Source of the DNA: Hydrogenophaga sp. BPS33
Lineage (GTDB): Bacteria > Pseudomonadota > Gammaproteobacteria > Burkholderiales > Burkholderiaceae_C
Direction of reading: 5' to 3'
DNA length: 64,000 bases
NCBI RefSeq assembly: GCF_009859475.1
Contig: NZ_CP044549.1
Location: forward strand, 5,642,001-5,706,000
The notes below the pieces were generated by a model. That model did not search any database. It saw nothing but the letters and a program-made list of their open reading frames with translations, and was not told the DNA's origin. A program made the translations under genes and the position numbers. Below are positions 50,595 to 58,186 of this stretch, piece after piece. Each line of letters opens with the position of its first letter. Position 1 is the stretch's first letter.

Positions 50595-50649
50595 CGGAGC
50601 GCGGACAGAAAGCGAATAAGACAGATCCCCGCGATCTAACACGCCCATG

Positions 50650-50682
50650 TTTACAACCACGGACATGTTAGATAACATGTCC
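50650..50682 (+). promoter_or_regulatory. Promoter overlapped by a 22-bp palindromic operator
   Basis: TTTACA (50650-50655), 17-base spacer, TAACAT (50673-50678) form a sigma-70-like promoter. GGACATGTTA-GA-TAACATGTCC (50661-50682) is a perfect palindrome with a 2-base spacer; its right arm contains the -10 box. Half-site-like CATG words also flank it. A dimeric repressor bound here would block transcription; the winged helix in the first gene is the likely binder. Confidence 0.68.
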
Positions 50683-50696
50683 GCGTTACATTGAAC

Positions 50697-51869
50697 ATGC
50701 CCATGTCTCAGCACCCTCCAACCACACGCGGTCAAGAAGCGGAAGAATTTGTCGCCAACTGGCTCGAGGGCAAAGGTTGGAGAGTGGAAGCGCATCCCGC
50801 CGGGCCTCTGAGCGGTGCAGATCTGGTCGCTCGGGAAGGCACCAAGGTCTATGTCGTCGAAGTCAAGTCGCTCGGCGAAGGCCGGCCCGATCGCGTCATT
50901 CCCAGCCTTTCCCAAGCGGTCCTGCAGGCTCAAACGCATGCCGCCAAGAAACCTAACGCGAAGCCTTTGGCGGTGGCCTATGTGGAACAGGCATCCCCGT
51001 CCCTCTTGAAGCAGGCCGCGCTATTTGCAGAACAGTACGTCCAAGGCGCAGGCGTGGGTATCGTGTCTTCCAATGGGTTGAGCCTCTGGCGACCGGGCCC
51101 CAATGGGCCTGTTGAAATCAGCGATACCCCGCAGAGCCGGACACGGAGCCGTTGGCAGGAAAAACCGCCGGTGCCCGAGGTTCTCAACCTCTTCTCGGAT
51201 CTCAACCAGTGGATGCTGAAAGTCCTGCTGGCGCCCGACATTCCGCCGGAACTGCTGCACGCGCCTCGAGGCCGTTATGACTCCGGAGCGGCATTGGCAG
51301 AGGCAGCGTTGGTTTCGAACATGAGCGCATCGAGGTTTCTCAAAGCCCTGCGCCGCGAGAAGTTTCTAGACGAATCCAAGAACCACATAGCGCTGGTTCG
51401 ACGAGAAGAGCTCTTCATGCGTTGGCGCGCAGCAGGCTTGCGCAGTTGTCCCGAGATTCCCATGCGCATCTCCATCAGGTCCACGGCGCAGCAGCAGATC
51501 CACAGGTTCATTGGCGAGCAAAACGGACAGGCCTGCCTCGGCCTCTTCGCGGCGGCTGACGGCCTGGGGCTGGGACATGTCAGTGGAGTCCCTCCCTACA
51601 TCTGCGTGGCCAAGCTGCCCCAACTGGGATCCCCAGGCATTGCAGTGCCTATGGTGGCTTACCCCGAAGGCGTGCCGGACTTCATCCTCCGACAAACCTT
51701 GTCGCCCCAATCCACGTTTCGCGGGGCGGTTCGGCGGGACGGCACAGCCTACGCAGATGTCATTCAGACCTGGCTCGATGTGTCCAACCATCCATCGCGC
51801 GGCCAAGAGCAGGCGGACCACATCCAACGCAGTTTTCTGCGCAAGGTGATCGAGGCAAAGCACACATGA
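50697..51869 (+). CDS. PD-(D/E)XK nuclease domain fused to an AbiEi-like winged helix
   Basis: 390 aa. The N-terminal domain (about 8-130) has a Mrr/RecB-type PD-(D/E)XK core: GADLVAREGTKVYVVEVKS gives Asp42, Glu55 and Lys57, with Gln residues in LSQAVLQAQTHA. A winged helix at about 193-225 (RYDSGAALAEAALVSNMSAS, then FLKALRREKF) and a C-terminal domain follow, resembling AbiEi-type antitoxins. It is coupled by an ATGA overlap to a nucleotidyltransferase. The promoter palindrome suggests autorepression. Start is ATG 50697 or 50703; neither has a Shine-Dalgarno and the leader is only about 12 bases. Nuclease activity is inferred from motif only. Confidence 0.65.
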   Translation: MPMSQHPPTTRGQEAEEFVANWLEGKGWRVEAHPAGPLSGADLVAREGTKVYVVEVKSLGEGRPDRVIPSLSQAVLQAQTHAAKKPNAKPLAVAYVEQASPSLLKQAALFAEQYVQGAGVGIVSSNGLSLWRPGPNGPVEISDTPQSRTRSRWQEKPPVPEVLNLFSDLNQWMLKVLLAPDIPPELLHAPRGRYDSGAALAEAALVSNMSASRFLKALRREKFLDESKNHIALVRREELFMRWRAAGLRSCPEIPMRISIRSTAQQQIHRFIGEQNGQACLGLFAAADGLGLGHVSGVPPYICVAKLPQLGSPGIAVPMVAYPEGVPDFILRQTLSPQSTFRGAVRRDGTAYADVIQTWLDVSNHPSRGQEQADHIQRSFLRKVIEAKHT

Positions 51870-52681
51870 ACGACCTCGGGGCCTTCGCCCAACTGGTTCG
51901 GGCTGTGGCGCCTTGGAGAGGTCAACTCGTCTTCATTGGCGGATGGGGGCACCGATTGCACACCTTGCACCCATCGGCCGGGAACGTGGACTTCGCACCC
52001 GTCTTCACCCGAGATACCGACTTGGCATTTGCGGACAAGCGTCCCTTGCAAGGCGACATCAAGTCTGCGCTGCTTGACCAAGGCTTCCACGAAGAACTTT
52101 CGGGCGATTTCAAGCCGCCGACAGCGCACTACACCCTGGGGAACGATCAAGGGGGCTTCTATGCCGAGTTCCTGACGCCGCTGGTGGGCAGCGGCTACAA
52201 ACGCAATGGGGAAAAAGATGCCACCGTGAAAACGGCTGGCATCTCAGCGCAGAAAATCCGGCACCTCGACATACTCATGGTCGACCCCTGGGCCATCACG
52301 GTGAGCAAGGCCAATGGCTTTCCTCTTGAAAACCCCGTCGACGTCCAGGTCGCGAACCCGCTGTGCTTCATGGTGCAGAAGCTCCTCATCAAGCAAGATC
52401 GCCCTCCGCGAAAGCAAGCGCAGGACCTGCTCTACATCCACGACACCATCCAGCTCTTTGGCCATCGACTGCCCGCCTTCAAAAAAAGCTGGGAGGACAC
52501 CGTCGGCCCGGCACTCGCAGCCGCGAGCAAGACGGTCTTGCGGGAATGCATGGAGTCGTTCTCGCAAGTGACCGACACCGTGCGGCAGGCCGCAGCCATT
52601 CCACAGGATCGCAAAATCTCCGCCGAAGAGTTTCAGGCGACTTGTCGCTACGCGTTCTCCGAAATCCTGGGGATGGGGTGA
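51866..52681 (+). CDS. Nucleotidyltransferase (NTP_transf_8 / AbiEii-like)
   Basis: 271 aa polymerase-beta-type nucleotidyltransferase. The GG motif (Gly25-Gly26 in LVFIGGWGHRL) and DxD motif (Asp50 and Asp52 in FTRDTDLAFADK) are visible, followed by NPLCFMVQKLLIKQDRPPRK, typical of the GSU2403/AbiEii group. In type IV systems such enzymes are toxins that modify tRNA or other RNAs with nucleotides. Paired with the upstream winged-helix protein it forms an AbiE-like module. Target unknown. Confidence 0.75.
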   Translation: MNDLGAFAQLVRAVAPWRGQLVFIGGWGHRLHTLHPSAGNVDFAPVFTRDTDLAFADKRPLQGDIKSALLDQGFHEELSGDFKPPTAHYTLGNDQGGFYAEFLTPLVGSGYKRNGEKDATVKTAGISAQKIRHLDILMVDPWAITVSKANGFPLENPVDVQVANPLCFMVQKLLIKQDRPPRKQAQDLLYIHDTIQLFGHRLPAFKKSWEDTVGPALAAASKTVLRECMESFSQVTDTVRQAAAIPQDRKISAEEFQATCRYAFSEILGMG

Positions 52682-52693
52682 CGAGGTGGCGTG

Positions 52694-53128
52694 ATGAACG
52701 ACAACACCTCTTCTGCTTCACTCGAACGTTTTGTTCAGGCACAGCAGCGCGATTACGCGCAAGCCCTGGCAGAACTGCAGGCCGGGCGCAAGCGCACGCA
52801 CTGGATCTGGTACGTGCTGCCGCAACTGCGTGGGTTGGGACACAGCGCGATGGCGCAGCGGTACGGCATCGACGGGCGTGCGGAGGCCGAAGCGTATGTG
52901 GCGCACCCGGTGCTGGGGCCTCGGCTGGTGGCTTGCGTGCGGGCGTTGCTAAGCCACCCGGAACTCAGTGCGCAGGAGATGCTGGGTGAGGTGGACGCGA
53001 TGAAGTTGCGGTCTTGCCTGACGCTGTTTGCGGAGGTGGCGCCTGGAGAGGGGTGTTTCGCTGAGGCGTTGGACACGTTCTATGGCGGCCAGCGAGACGC
53101 GAGCACGTTGGCGCTGCTGGCGACATAG
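52694..53128 (+). CDS. DUF1810 family protein
   Basis: 144 aa. Signature FVQAQQRDYAQALAELQAGR and KRTHWIWYVLPQLRGLGHSA are characteristic of DUF1810, small helical proteins of unknown function. A GTG one codon upstream (52691) overlaps as an alternative start; GAGG precedes both. It follows the nucleotidyltransferase by 12 bases, possibly in the same transcript. Confidence 0.85.
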   Translation: MNDNTSSASLERFVQAQQRDYAQALAELQAGRKRTHWIWYVLPQLRGLGHSAMAQRYGIDGRAEAEAYVAHPVLGPRLVACVRALLSHPELSAQEMLGEVDAMKLRSCLTLFAEVAPGEGCFAEALDTFYGGQRDASTLALLAT

Positions 53129-53312
53129 CGGGTCGGTTCGCAAGCCGCCGCCGCACTTGCGAACTACGTCACGCAATCGCCAGCCAATCGCACACCCGTT
53201 CTTCTTCCACCGGCAATCTCCGCAGTGATTGAACATGGTCTCGCATACGATTTGCAACCGATGCACCTAGCGACGCAAAGCACAGCGCACCCGTTGCACC
53301 GAGATCGCCAGG

Positions 53313-53531
53313 ATGAAAAGAACCATTGCCCTCATCGCATTCACGCTATTGACGCTGGGTGGTGCATCCGCATCAGACCCGTGGGTGTCCCTGTGCGATG
53401 CGCAGGACGCGCTGCAGCACGGCGGAGGGCTCAACGCATGCGGGTGCCATTTCAACCGCAAGACGGGTGACTGTCATTGCCACCAGCGCAGAGGATGCGG
53501 GTGTGCGTGTCAGCCGGCGAGCTGCGGATGA
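53313..53531 (+). CDS. Small secreted Cys/His-rich protein
   Basis: 72 aa. A signal peptide of about 20 residues (MKRTIALIAFTLLTLGGASA) is followed by a mature part of about 50 residues with nine Cys and several His, containing GGGLNACGCHFNRKTGDCHC. This resembles the GCHxNRKTGxYHCH element seen at the end of some secreted nucleases and small periplasmic proteins. Metal binding is likely. The last codons overlap no other gene; the frameshifted gene starts 8 bases later. Function unknown. Confidence 0.6.
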   Translation: MKRTIALIAFTLLTLGGASASDPWVSLCDAQDALQHGGGLNACGCHFNRKTGDCHCHQRRGCGCACQPASCG

Positions 53532-53538
53532 ACCGCTG

Positions 53539-54265
53539 ATGGCGGCTGATCTTGCGCGCCTTCAAAGTCCCGCAGCTGTTCAAGCAGCGTTGGACGAGTT
53601 TTCTCGCCTCGGCCGCACGGCCTTCCTCTCCCGATACGGGTTTGGCAAGTCTCGTGACTTTCTCGTGCGCGATGGCAAGACGGGGCAGCTGTGCGACTCC
53701 AAGGCCATCGTTGGTGCCGCGTTCGGCCATCAATTCCCGGACGAAGGTCCCCTCAAAACTGCCGACTTTTCGGGTGGCGAAGCGACCGTCGTTCCGCGCC
53801 TGCAACGTCTTGGCTTCGAAGTGGTGCGCATCGGTGAGGACTGGACATCGGACGGCCCAACGCGATGAGGCCAACCGAACACTGGGACGCGCGGGCGAGC
53901 AATGGGTGATCGGCTTCGAGCAGCGGCGACTTGTCGATGCGGGGCATCCGGAGCTTTTCCAGAAGTTGGACTGGGTGTCGGACCGGCTTGGTGATGGCAC
54001 CGGGTACGACATCCTCTCGCACGACGGGCCGGGTGTGCATCGCTTCATCGAGGTCAAGACCACGAACGGTGGCTATGCTTCGTCCTTCATCATCAGCCGC
54101 AACGAGTTGGATTTTGCGAAAGAGGCGGAGGATGCGTTCCATCTCTACCGAGTCTTTCAATTCCGAGAAGAGCCGAGGCTCTATATTCTGAAGGGGCGGT
54201 TGGCAGAGCAGCTTCATCTGGAGCCCATTGACTACAGGGCGTCGTTTCGGCGCTTGGCGGGGTGA
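53539..54265 (+). pseudogene. Frameshifted McrA-head / DUF3883 restriction-type gene
   Basis: The N-terminal half (53539-53868) has ALDEFSRLGRTAFLSRYGFG and GHQFPDEGPLKTADFSGGEA, the ScoMcrA-type head domain that recognises modified DNA. It stops at TGA 53866-53868. The C-terminal half continues one frame later, from about codon 53864 (DEANRTLGRAGEQWVIGFEQ), as a DUF3883/NOV_C domain (GYDILSHDGPGVHRFIEVKT, a PD-(D/E)XK-like core). No start codon suits the second part alone. One extra base near 53850-53868 would explain the break. Total about 241 aa. A sequencing error cannot be excluded. Confidence 0.75.
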
Positions 54266-54376
54266 TCGAAATGACGCAGCGGTATCGGCCAACGAAAGAC
54301 CCGCTCAGACTGACAGCGGAAGTTCGCCCTTGCTGTCCTCGCCGGTAGATTTCGCCCCATAGCAGACCTCAGAAAT

Positions 54377-55159
54377 CTAGACCGTGGGCACCGTCCCACC
54401 ATCGATCACATGTTCCGAGCCCGACACCGATGCCGCGCGCGGAGACACCAGGAAGGTGATCAGGTCTGCGACCTCCTGCGGCTTGGCGGGACGCCCGACC
54501 GGAATCCCGCCGAGCCAGTCCATGACCATCTTCTTGCCGCCCTCGTAGTCTGTGCCCGCTTGGGCCGCCATTCGCTCGGCGAATGCAACCGAGGCCTCGG
54601 TCTCAATCCAGCCTGGCGAGACGCGCAGAACGCGAACGCCCTTGGGCGTGACCTCCTTCGACAGGGATTTGCTGTAGGTCGAGAGGGCGCCCTTGGCCGC
54701 GGCATAGGCGGTGGTGGACGCCGGAAGCGGAAGCACACGTTGAATCGAGGTCACGTGCAGGACGACGCCTGCGCCCTTTGCCAACATGGCGGGCAGCAGT
54801 GCGCGGTCAAGACGGACCGCGGACATGAAGTTCAGGTTCAGCTCACTGAACCACATCGCGTCGTCAAGGGCCGCAAAACCCCCTGCCGGCGCGTTCGATC
54901 CACCGAGAGAATTGATCAAGATGTCGACGCCGCCCCAGCGCTCGGTTACTGTGCGCGCGAGCCGTACCACGCCTTCTGCGGTCGTCAAGTCGGTCTGTAC
55001 GTAGGACACACCTTCAAGCGGCTTCTCGGGAGCAGAGCGCGCAGTCGTCATCACTTCTACGCCGGCATCCTGCAGGCTCTTGACGAGAGCCGCGCCCAGG
55101 CCCTTGGTGCCACCCGTCACCAGGGCACGCTGCCCTTTCAGTTGGAGGTCGAAGCTCAT
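54377..55159 (-). CDS. SDR-family oxidoreductase
   Basis: 260 aa classical SDR. Cofactor loop [16 protein letters not shown] in place of the usual NNAG ([14 protein letters not shown]), catalytic Ser in LHVTSIQ and YxxxK in [14 protein letters not shown] preference is likely from TTARSAPEK after beta-2. It forms a two-gene unit with the SnoaL-like gene (4-base overlap) divergent from a LysR regulator, the usual layout of LysR-controlled detoxification genes. Confidence 0.9.
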
Positions 55160-55482
55160 GCCGTGATCTCCAGCGATGCGATCAGGCCGCGCTCGAGTCG
55201 AAAGCGGTAAGACAGATCGATAGGGCTGCCCGGAAAGTTGCCCGTGACGTTTGCGCGGACAACCTGGAAGCCGTCCTCCCGCTCCAGCGCGAGCGGCACG
55301 GTGGTTGCGCTGTATTTGGCGGATGCCGCCGCCATAAAGGCCTTGATGGCGTCAACGCCCGTGTAGGTGCGCCCATCGTCCTTCATCACGGCTTGCGCTG
55401 TGAAGCAATACGCCAAGGCCTCGGGGTTGTGTTCGGCCGCAAAGTACGCGGCAATTGGTTCGGGAAGGGTCAGGGTGTGCAT
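55156..55482 (-). CDS. SnoaL-like / NTF2-fold small protein
   Basis: 108 aa. One NTF2-like domain: [40 protein letters not shown] and the final beta strand [15 protein letters not shown]. Such proteins are ketosteroid-isomerase-like enzymes or ligand binders. It is co-transcribed with the SDR gene. LysR regulation is inferred from the divergent LysR gene 102 bases away. Confidence 0.83.
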
Positions 55483-55584
55483 GCTTTGGGGTCCATCTGG
55501 TGAATGAAGCCCTTAGGATGCGCGCCGAGATGAATTTAGAGAATGGCCTAGAATGTTTATGAGCTGTGTAGAAAGAAATACATA

Positions 55585-56523
55585 ATGCGCGGAGCCGAAT
55601 TCGCGGAGCTGAAGGCCTTCGCGGCCGTGGTCGAACGAGCGAGCTTCGCCCGGGCGGCAGAGCATTTGGGCCTATCGCCTTCTGCGCTCAGCCAGACCAT
55701 TCGGCAACTTGAAAGCCGGATCGGCGCACGCCTTCTCAATCGCACGACACGAAGCGTCGCGCCATCGGCCACTGGCGAACTGCTCTACAAGCGCATCGCC
55801 CCACTGTTCCGCGAGATGGCTGTTGCAGTAGCCGAAGCCAGCGAAGCCGCAGGACAGACCACTGGCACGCTTCGCATCAACACGCTGGGAATCGCCGCTA
55901 GAACCATCATTGCGCCCAGGCTTTCACGCTTTCATCAGGCGTACCCAGACGTGGTGCTCGACATCGTGGTCGATGACGCATTGGCCGATATCGTCGTTGG
56001 TCGTTTCGACGCCGGCATCCGCGTGGGTGGGCGGCTTGAGAAGGACATGGTTGCCGTCCGTCTCACGCCAGACCTCAACATGGTTGCAGTGGCGTCTCCC
56101 GAGTACCTGGCTGCTCGGGGTGTACCCAAGACACCCGCCGATCTGCACAGCCATGCATGCATCAACTGGCGGCTCCAGATGGATGGCAGGCACTACCGCT
56201 GGGAGTTCGAGAAAAGGGGAAAAAGACTTGAAGTCGCGGTCGACGGCCCCGTCGTCACCAATCACGCCGACATCGGCATTGCGGCTGCGCTGAACGGCCT
56301 CGGTATCGCTTATCACTTCGAGCAAGACGGCGTGGGCGACCTCCTGGCCCAGGGCCGGTTGGTCCAGGTCCTGGCGGACTGGTCAATCTCGCGGCCGGGG
56401 ATGTTCCTCTACTACCCGAACAGGCGGCATCGACCAGCCCTCCTTGGTGCTTTCATCGACTGTCTGTTGGACAAGGACCTGGAAGGCATCCCCCGCAAGC
56501 CCCGGGTCGCCAGATCGACTTGA
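55585..56523 (+). CDS. LysR-family transcriptional regulator
   Basis: 312 aa. N-terminal winged HTH (about 1-60: ELKAFAAVVERASFARAAEH, LSPSALSQTIRQLESRIGAR) and a periplasmic-binding-protein-like effector domain (about 90-300, IDIVVDDALADIVVGRFDAG-like). It is divergent from the SDR/SnoaL pair and probably regulates it. The gap 55483-55584 should hold its binding site, but I could not define a unique T-N11-A box. Confidence 0.9.
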   Translation: MRGAEFAELKAFAAVVERASFARAAEHLGLSPSALSQTIRQLESRIGARLLNRTTRSVAPSATGELLYKRIAPLFREMAVAVAEASEAAGQTTGTLRINTLGIAARTIIAPRLSRFHQAYPDVVLDIVVDDALADIVVGRFDAGIRVGGRLEKDMVAVRLTPDLNMVAVASPEYLAARGVPKTPADLHSHACINWRLQMDGRHYRWEFEKRGKRLEVAVDGPVVTNHADIGIAAALNGLGIAYHFEQDGVGDLLAQGRLVQVLADWSISRPGMFLYYPNRRHRPALLGAFIDCLLDKDLEGIPRKPRVARST

Positions 56524-56878
56524 CCATAAGGCTTCGAGGTCGGTTCAAGACTGAACCCGGTCCTCCGCGCCTAGCTTCATGAATGACCGCTGATTCGAAG
56601 AGCGGTCAGTGCGCCTCCACCTCACCGACTTAGCGAAGACCGCCCGTTACCGGTCTTTGCGCTGGTGCGGCCGGGAGGGTCCATCTGGACGACTACCGTT
56701 GAGTTTCCAGATGGGGTGAGTCATACAGCCGGCTTGGGAAAGGAAGGCGTCGGACTTCAGTGCGAGTTCATCCACGTGATCCGCTTCTTGTCATCGGCGA
56801 CGACGCTCTGAGGTGTAGGGACGTCCTGCATGGAATTTCCTTTCCGGAGAAAGATTATTCCCACGGCCCGAAGTGTTG
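56524..56878. other. 355-base non-coding gap with hairpins
   Basis: No gene supported. It holds a small hairpin just after the LysR stop (GGTTCA-AGAC-TGAACC, 56542-56557, possible terminator) and a 9-bp inverted repeat (CCATCTGGA 56681-56689 with TCCAGATGG 56706-56714). The rest shows no coding pattern. Confidence 0.6.
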
Positions 56879-58186
56879 CTACTGCAACAGCTCATGCCCA
56901 TGCGACACCAGAAACAACAGCACCCCAATGCAACACCCCACGGCCGTGCCGCTGATGCGGATGTATTGCAGGTCCGGGCCGATGCTCACTTCGATCTGCC
57001 GCGACATGGCCTTCGCGTCCCACTGGCGCACGGTGTCGCGGATGTGGCGCGTGAGAAAGTCGGCGAACGGCGGCGCGGCCGATGCGGCGATGGACTGGAT
57101 GTGGTCGTTGAGGGAGGTGCGCAGCTCGGCGTCCTGCGCGATCTTTTCGCCGAGCCACACGCCGATGCGCTCAACACGCCGCTGCAGCTCGGGTGAGCTG
57201 GAGGCCAGGTCGTTGGACAGCCAGGTTCTGAGCGCCTTCCACAGGCTGCTCGCGTACGCCGCCAGCTCCGGGTTGTTCAGCACATAGGCCTTGATCTCTT
57301 CGCCCTTGCGGCGGAAATCCTCGTCCGTCTTGAGCTTGCCCACCAGGGTCTGCAAGGCTTCGTCGAAGGCTTCGCGCAATTCGTGCGCCGGGCTGTTCGC
57401 CACCTCCGCCAGAAAGCGCTTCACGCCCGCGCTGGCTGCCTGGGCGGCCTGGTTGCCGATCCATTCCGTGGGCAGAAGCATCTGCTTGTACTTGTGGTCT
57501 TCCTTCAGCCAAGCCACGACGCGGGCGGCGATCTCGTCGCGCACCTCGGGCCGGCTCAGCCACTGCGCCAACTGGGTCAACCCGGCGTCGAGCAACTGCT
57601 GGTGCCGCCCGCCTTTGGTCAGCATCTCGAGCACCGAGCCCAGGGCGGGCGAGAAGTCCAGCCGGCCCACCACGGTGCGCGCGGCATCGCTGATGAAGCT
57701 CTGGATGCGCCGGTCGTCCACGAGGTCGAGCCAGCCGTTCACCAGATCTGCCGTGTGCCGGCCCACGCGCCGCGCGTTGGTGGGCTGTCGCAACCAGTCG
57801 GCGAAGCGCTGGACGGGATCGCTCTGCTGTATCAGCGCCGCCAAGGCCTGCGGGTTGAGGAATTTGTCGCGCACAAAGTCGGCCAGGTTGGCCGCGATGC
57901 GGTCCTTGTTCTCCGGAATGATGGCGGTGTGGGGAATCGGCAGTCCCAAGGGGCGGCGGAACAAGGCCACCACCGCGAACCAGTCGGCCAGGCCGCCGAC
58001 CATCGCGGCCTCTGCGCCCGCTTTGAGCAAGCGCATGGCGAAGGTGGGCGGAAGGAAGAGCGTGGCAACGAAGACGGCCGTGGCGACAGCCAGGCAACCC
58101 AGCGCGACCAGCTGCATGCGCCGCAGCCGCACCTCCGCACCGAACCCGCTCGGGTCCCTCCCCTGACGCATCTGCTTTTCGACCAA
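56879..58186 (-). CDS. DUF445 family membrane-associated protein
   Basis: 435 aa. An N-terminal membrane hairpin (about 25-65: LGCLAVATAVFVATLFLPPT, AGAEAAMVGGLADWFAVVAL) and a C-terminal membrane helix (GCCIGVLLFLVSH) bracket a long helical region (about 85-410). The blocks LADWFAVVALFRRPLGLPIP and IPENKDRIAANLADFVRDKF identify DUF445 (YjiN-like). Function unknown; some members affect envelope integrity. Monocistronic, with two alternative Met starts inside the first 25 codons. Confidence 0.88.
   Translation of the reverse strand: MVEKQMRQGRDPSGFGAEVRLRRMQLVALGCLAVATAVFVATLFLPPTFAMRLLKAGAEAAMVGGLADWFAVVALFRRPLGLPIPHTAIIPENKDRIAANLADFVRDKFLNPQALAALIQQSDPVQRFADWLRQPTNARRVGRHTADLVNGWLDLVDDRRIQSFISDAARTVVGRLDFSPALGSVLEMLTKGGRHQQLLDAGLTQLAQWLSRPEVRDEIAARVVAWLKEDHKYKQMLLPTEWIGNQAAQAASAGVKRFLAEVANSPAHELREAFDEALQTLVGKLKTDEDFRRKGEEIKAYVLNNPELAAYASSLWKALRTWLSNDLASSSPELQRRVERIGVWLGEKIAQDAELRTSLNDHIQSIAASAAPPFADFLTRHIRDTVRQWDAKAMSRQIEVSIGPDLQYIRISGTAVGCCIGVLLFLVSHGHELLQ

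Follow-up and report, generated by a model that had tools for sequence, protein, structure and literature searches.

A nuclease-type domain on a putative antitoxin: a predicted new version of the AbiE/MenAT-like toxin–antitoxin module in Hydrogenophaga sp. BPS33

What does a nuclease-type domain do at the N-terminus of a protein that otherwise resembles an antitoxin? The question is raised by two overlapping genes, here gene 1 (g1) and gene 2 (g2), in a 64,000-nucleotide stretch (the window) of the 6.77 Mb genome of Hydrogenophaga sp. BPS33 (contig NZ_CP044549.1, positions 5,642,001 to 5,706,000). An initial annotation, made from the sequence alone, described an autoregulated pair in which a PD-(D/E)XK domain fused to an AbiEi-like winged helix precedes a nucleotidyltransferase (NTase), and suggested that the fusion could make the first protein an effector as well as a repressor. 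Our analysis favors, with a probability of about 0.6, a toxin–antitoxin (TA) module of the AbiE/MenAT kind in which g2 is the toxin, g1 is both antitoxin and autorepressor, and the PD-(D/E)XK-fold domain of g1 is mainly non-cleaving; we call this nuclease-type domain on a putative antitoxin a new version of the AbiE/MenAT-like TA module.

Both open reading frames (ORFs) are on the forward strand where the initial annotation placed them, with the ATG of g2 lying across the stop of g1, and contain the motifs that it listed. The start candidates of g1 are TTG 50691, ATG 50697 and ATG 50703 (stop, 51869); the nuclease triad annotated as D42/E55/K57 from ATG 50697 is D40/E53/K55 from ATG 50703, the numbering used here. 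Public genomes were scanned for relatives of g1, and 80 of the 94 found were kept; a match to g2 adjoins g1 in 72 of these 80 loci, a count that takes in partial g2 genes (e.g., L008, L010, L015, L075, L079 and L085). Seven of the other eight loci are in genomes without any g2, several of them metagenome-assembled genomes (MAGs), found among 12 genomes picked for a missing or damaged g2; the eighth, L046, stops 357 bp past g1, and its genome has a piece of g2 (residues 48–270) with no g1 on the 2175 bp fetched. For 379 genomes from the class to which one Bryobacterales genome belongs, each gene was also searched separately (the first pass scored at most six candidates per genome for g2 and at most five for g1): g1 is in 26, g2 in 24 and both in 21 (P ~8 × 10−27). 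In these genomes all 15 g2 matches covering 240 or more of the 271 positions without a stop are beside g1, and two of the 21 near-full-length g1 genes (one of the 21 has an internal stop) are without g2; among uninterrupted copies in this class the putative toxin is lost with the antitoxin kept, never the reverse, as a TA pair predicts. Partial g2 without g1 occurs in genomes G1027, G1065 and G1083, and partial g1 without g2 in G883, G942 and G1138. A draw of 399 genomes from the window's own order has g1 in two and g2 in one. Eight plasmid records match g1; four carry g2, always beside g1, and four have partial g1 only. The pairwise distances of the two genes co-vary (Mantel r = 0.82, p = 0.001; 60 rows, that is, the window and 59 loci).

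The g2 protein matches PF12281 (NTP_transf_8; 118.5 bits, curated cut-off 26.3) and no other family; a PF08843 search of its own genome gave no match at the g2 locus. Its predicted fold is closest to MenT3 and MenT1, matching over most of the chain, with 10–15% identity in the structural alignments; the module connects PF12281 to the MenT toxin fold. The active site is G25 G26, D50 and D52 (DxD), K172-x6-R179 and D187; the set is complete in 176 of 180 sequences, with T48, K172 and D187 each conserved in 179 and D50 in 178. T48, two positions before the DxD, is a putative phospho-acceptor, matched together with D50, K172 and D187 to T39/D41/K137/D152 of MenT1 by spacing rather than by a residue-level alignment. 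This predicted fold and these motifs suggest that g2 would be a MenT-like nucleotidyltransferase toxin, probably adding nucleotides to RNA such as tRNA.

For g1, predicted structures support a PD-(D/E)XK fold at the N-terminus, followed by a winged helix-turn-helix (wHTH) and, less clearly, an AbiEi-like C-terminal domain. The N-terminal domain scores 9.2 with CdiA-CT, 8.8 with PaqCI, 8.6 with XisH, 8.5 with AF1548 and 7.6 with Hjc, and Hjc is its top Foldseek match; among the relatives, family models pass their cut-offs for Mrr_cat in L040 and Hjc in L042. No AbiEi family model matches the g1 of the window; AbiEi_2 is a sub-threshold match in two of the 38 members of our alignment A4 and in L085 outside it, and the match in L057 spans profile positions 2–142 of 143. 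The initial annotation had put at stake a structural match for these domains and a conserved neighborhood for the pair, and both are found. At the level of sequence, hhalign gave g1 no AbiEi match, homologue search and hhalign gave no link from g1 to nuclease-free partner proteins, and sequence searches of solved structures returned no credible relative. PADLOC assigns a name to neither protein (g1 has only a weak PDC-S02 match, E 0.001). The domain assignments are a better annotation lead for proteins now labeled RpiR regulator or hypothetical protein.

Whether the nuclease-fold domain cuts can be judged from its triad. D40-E53-K55 is intact in 56 and broken in 20 of 76 gap-free rows (79 rows with three gapped ones omitted; L071 is absent from that alignment), and 97 of 119 near homologues retain it intact. 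When the triad columns are left out of the tree, the 20 broken rows require at least 16 changes, or 11 when well-supported branches only are counted. With D/E swaps taken as intact, 17 rows are broken by 14 changes (10 well-supported) and 101 of the 119 homologues are intact; 12 of these 17 non-conservatively broken rows retain a full-length g2. The broken-triad label is weakly clustered on the tree (61 and 83 of 500 shuffles are as low), as expected from scattered loss. The g2-less loci are divided: the triad is broken in all four of L026–L029 and intact in L044 and L084. Mean column conservation is 0.40 in the nuclease-fold domain (0.32 in residues 8–56), 0.57 in the winged helix, 0.48 in the C-terminal domain and 0.48 in g2; within the nuclease-fold domain, all 38 aligned rows share R61, D63 and R64. 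The suggestion that the fusion makes g1 an effector is unsupported because the triad has been lost at many places on the tree while the NTase site is constant; the nuclease as an essential effector is weakened by the same repeated loss, and we regard a true effector role as unlikely. The simplest reading of these alignments is that the domain has been retained to bind and not to cut, cleavage being optional; its role would be in DNA binding, assembly or sensing.

The "22-bp perfect palindrome" of the initial annotation is real as 22 paired bases, CGGACATGTTA-GA-TAACATGTCCG, that is, perfect 11-bp arms around a 2-nucleotide center that is not self-complementary; no other perfect inverted repeat in the window (gap of 4 or less) is as long. 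The palindrome covers, as described, the −10 hexamer plus 13 bp of the spacer of a sigma-70-like match (9 of 12 positions; shuffles average 0.5 such sites). What had been missed is that the palindrome is one part of a predicted four-site operator array at 50638–50707 in which the promoter match also sits (Table 1). An operator matrix trained on and scanned over the same 79 rows (the window and 78 loci, upstream of g1) identifies 226 sites vs 2.8 per shuffled set; 77 of the rows have at least one site and 76 at least two (L044 has one, L010 and L071 none), and adjacent sites are spaced by exactly 18 bp in 140 of 149 gaps. The repeating unit, from 125 site pairs, is TAaCATGGCCATGtTA followed by two A/T-rich bases. 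By record title, the rows include Burkholderiales, Xanthomonadales, Acidobacteria and Gemmatimonadetes, and many are MAGs. Outside the training rows and excluding fragments, the array is present in five of six loci with a g1 start (L161, L163, L172, L178 and L187; L174 is without it), few of which are independent: the sites of L161 are those of training locus L040, those of the frame-split L187 are nearly those of L172, and L189 is L178 again. Dyad symmetry is 0.74 about the GGCC center and 0.63 about the AT center, with column shuffles at 0.73 and 0.60. As to a wider regulon, the source genome has seven other matches to the 16-bp core (one or two mismatches), with arrays in none of the three scanned (L121–L123). 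In the winged helix, S205, M207 and R211 are invariant (38-row alignment). The position of site 4 on the start codon and of the promoter match within the array suits repression, and this strong sequence evidence, in line with the autoregulation initially proposed, indicates that g1 probably represses its own transcription through the array. A strictly phased operator, common to distant bacteria, makes autoregulation directly testable.

How new is this arrangement? The pair shares with AbiE a two-gene operon with the regulator/antitoxin gene first and the NTase second and, as far as excerpts of the AbiE literature go, a predicted wHTH plus C-terminal domain in g1, inverted repeats at the promoter and the hGG, DxD, K-x6-R and D motifs of g2, which are motifs I–IV of AbiE NTases in an excerpt of PMC3985639; the gap from GG to DxD is 15 residues there and 23 in g2. 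As to toxin family, g2 belongs to PF12281 and not to AbiEii (DUF1814, PF08843). AbiE (AbiEi, COG5340/COG4861, with AbiEii) also lacks a PD-(D/E)XK-fold domain of the kind added at the N-terminus of g1, and the excerpts on MenAT3 and MenAT1 of Mycobacterium tuberculosis mention no such domain in the Men antitoxins. The operator, with 16-bp palindromes every 18 bp, is unlike those described in an excerpt of PMC7319586: two 23-bp repeats 3 bp apart for AbiEi, and four repeats with 13- and 4-bp gaps for Rv2827c. With the Mrr, Hjc and UPF0102 (YraN) nuclease domains, the g1 domain has in common the fold and the D...ExK motif; unlike them, it is fused to a wHTH antitoxin-like protein, its triad is often lost and R61-x-D63-R64 is invariant. 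Among the titles listed in a search of the open literature (subscription journals and preprints lay outside it), no AbiE-type or NTase TA protein fused to a nuclease domain is described, nor is one in the excerpted text of PMC12988326 on AbiE.

In the TA module that we favor, the winged helix of g1 would bind the 18-bp-phased palindromes across its own promoter, and the AbiEi-like C-terminal domain, judging from its predicted fold and from the pairing of the genes, may neutralize g2, plausibly by promoting phosphorylation at the conserved T48; neutralization of the phosphorylation type is reported, in excerpts, for MenT1 and MenT3. The N-terminal domain would be an added module, more likely to bind DNA, to join neighboring subunits along the array or to sense foreign or damaged DNA than to cleave. 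We put forward only tentatively a further form of this model, a TA system with a built-in DNA sensor in which a former nuclease is now the trigger of an abortive-infection switch: antitoxin subunits aligned on the phased array via their winged helices would keep their nuclease-fold domains positioned along the DNA, these would recognize invading or broken DNA through R61-x-D63-R64 without cutting, and the recognized DNA would pull the antitoxin off both promoter and toxin, freeing the nucleotidyltransferase. What releases the toxin in AbiE/MenAT pairs is not settled in the excerpted literature, and the nuclease-fold domain is a concrete candidate for the sensor.

Other assignments of roles were weighed against the same data. 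The g1 protein could be an active nuclease, directed when released at invading or host DNA, as well as a regulator, with g2 as a second effector or an activator; the window, like most loci and near homologues, has the triad, and the fold matches include the active nucleases PaqCI and Hjc. The scattered loss of the triad, the full-length g2 that persists in 12 of the 17 non-conservatively broken rows and the position of residues 8–56 among the least conserved of g1 make such a dual-effector defense system unlikely. The broken triads with g2 in place also count against an exchange of roles in which the g1 nuclease is the toxin and g2 an antitoxin that modifies it, for which HEPN/MNT pairs provide a precedent in excerpted literature. 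A nuclease fold in g1 and the more constant NTase active site would be compatible with that exchange; the persistence of g1 in seven g2-less genomes is unexpected for a nuclease toxin, although four of these (L026–L029) are triad-broken, and we consider the exchange very improbable. Finally, the pair could be a self-regulated operon outside TA biology, in which g2 modifies a small molecule or antibiotic and g1 is its transcriptional regulator. Self-regulation is common to this proposal and to the TA module; MenT toxins score clearly higher in the g2 fold comparison, the K-x6-R motif and TxDxD spacing match those of toxins, and loss of g2 with g1 kept, together with scattered and plasmid-borne occurrence, better suits a TA module, so the operon without a toxin is quite doubtful.

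Table 1. Features of the g1–g2 locus (positions in the window)
Feature	Position	Strand	Evidence or remark
Putative operator site 1	50638..50651	+	matrix score 17.9
Sigma-70-like promoter match TTTACA-17-TAACAT	50650..50678	+	consensus match only
Putative operator site 2	50656..50669	+	matrix score 15.6; 18 bp past site 1
Palindrome (facing halves of operator sites 2 and 3)	50660..50683	.	inverted-repeat search
Putative operator site 3	50674..50687	+	matrix score 14.4; 18 bp past site 2
Putative operator site 4, across g1 start codon	50694..50707	+	matrix score 11.6; 20 bp past site 3
g1	50703..51869	+	388 aa; ORF, family models, fold search, 80 related loci
g1 PD-(D/E)XK-fold domain (predicted)	50724..51101	+	residues 8–133; D40, E53, K55 present
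g1 winged-helix region	51183..51467	+	residues 161–255
g1 AbiEi-like C-terminal domain (predicted)	51468..51860	+	residues 256–386
g1 stop/g2 start ATGA overlap	51866..51869	+	sequence
g2	51866..52681	+	271 aa; PF12281 nucleotidyltransferase, putative toxin

Other members of PF12281 are longer: 53 of 398 genomes in the phylum encode proteins of the "GSU2403 family" with frames mostly of 315–404 aa. No g1 homologue was found on 30 short loci (L088–L117) of these long proteins, the two loci measured being under 3 kb. For PF12281, NTP_transf_8, COG5397 or GSU2403, the open literature searched turned up nothing beyond an expression table, in an excerpt of PMC7962754, that lists GSU2403 as a hypothetical protein. 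The source genome also has a second overlapping pair (L005 1375–2605; C1 near 107.5 kb), in which a 182-aa MarR-like protein without a nuclease domain accompanies a 237-aa NTase that borders on AbiEii (PF08843; 21.8 bits, cut-off 22.5) and aligns with the g2 profile (hhalign P 1.3 × 10−6).

No match to the pair was found in phage records, or in viral contigs with short conserved patterns, and no third gene or defense neighborhood recurs, that is, no Pfam or PADLOC family is in more than two members at E 10−8 among 125 of the 150 flanking proteins; restriction, RmrA and PD-T4-6 models have single matches. Two loci that may be from one species (L026 6001–11046 and L118 227–5302) have a g1 with a broken triad, no g2 and then a 1274-aa protein that by eye resembles a SIR2-domain effector. 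In the window, the ORF upstream of the pair carries two CxxCH motifs and reads as cytochrome-c-like. The GC content is 0.61 in g1, 0.60 in g2 and 0.66 in the whole window; per kb it is 0.607–0.622 across ~51000–57000 vs 0.638–0.705 on either side, so this low-GC stretch, the pair included, was perhaps acquired. Downstream on the forward strand, a DUF1810 gene (52691–53128), present in three of 14 family genomes, begins 10 bp past g2, and a NOV_C (NO VEIN C-terminal) protein (53552–54265), ~0.9 kb past the pair, matches the PADLOC candidate PDC-S36 (9.1 × 10−54).
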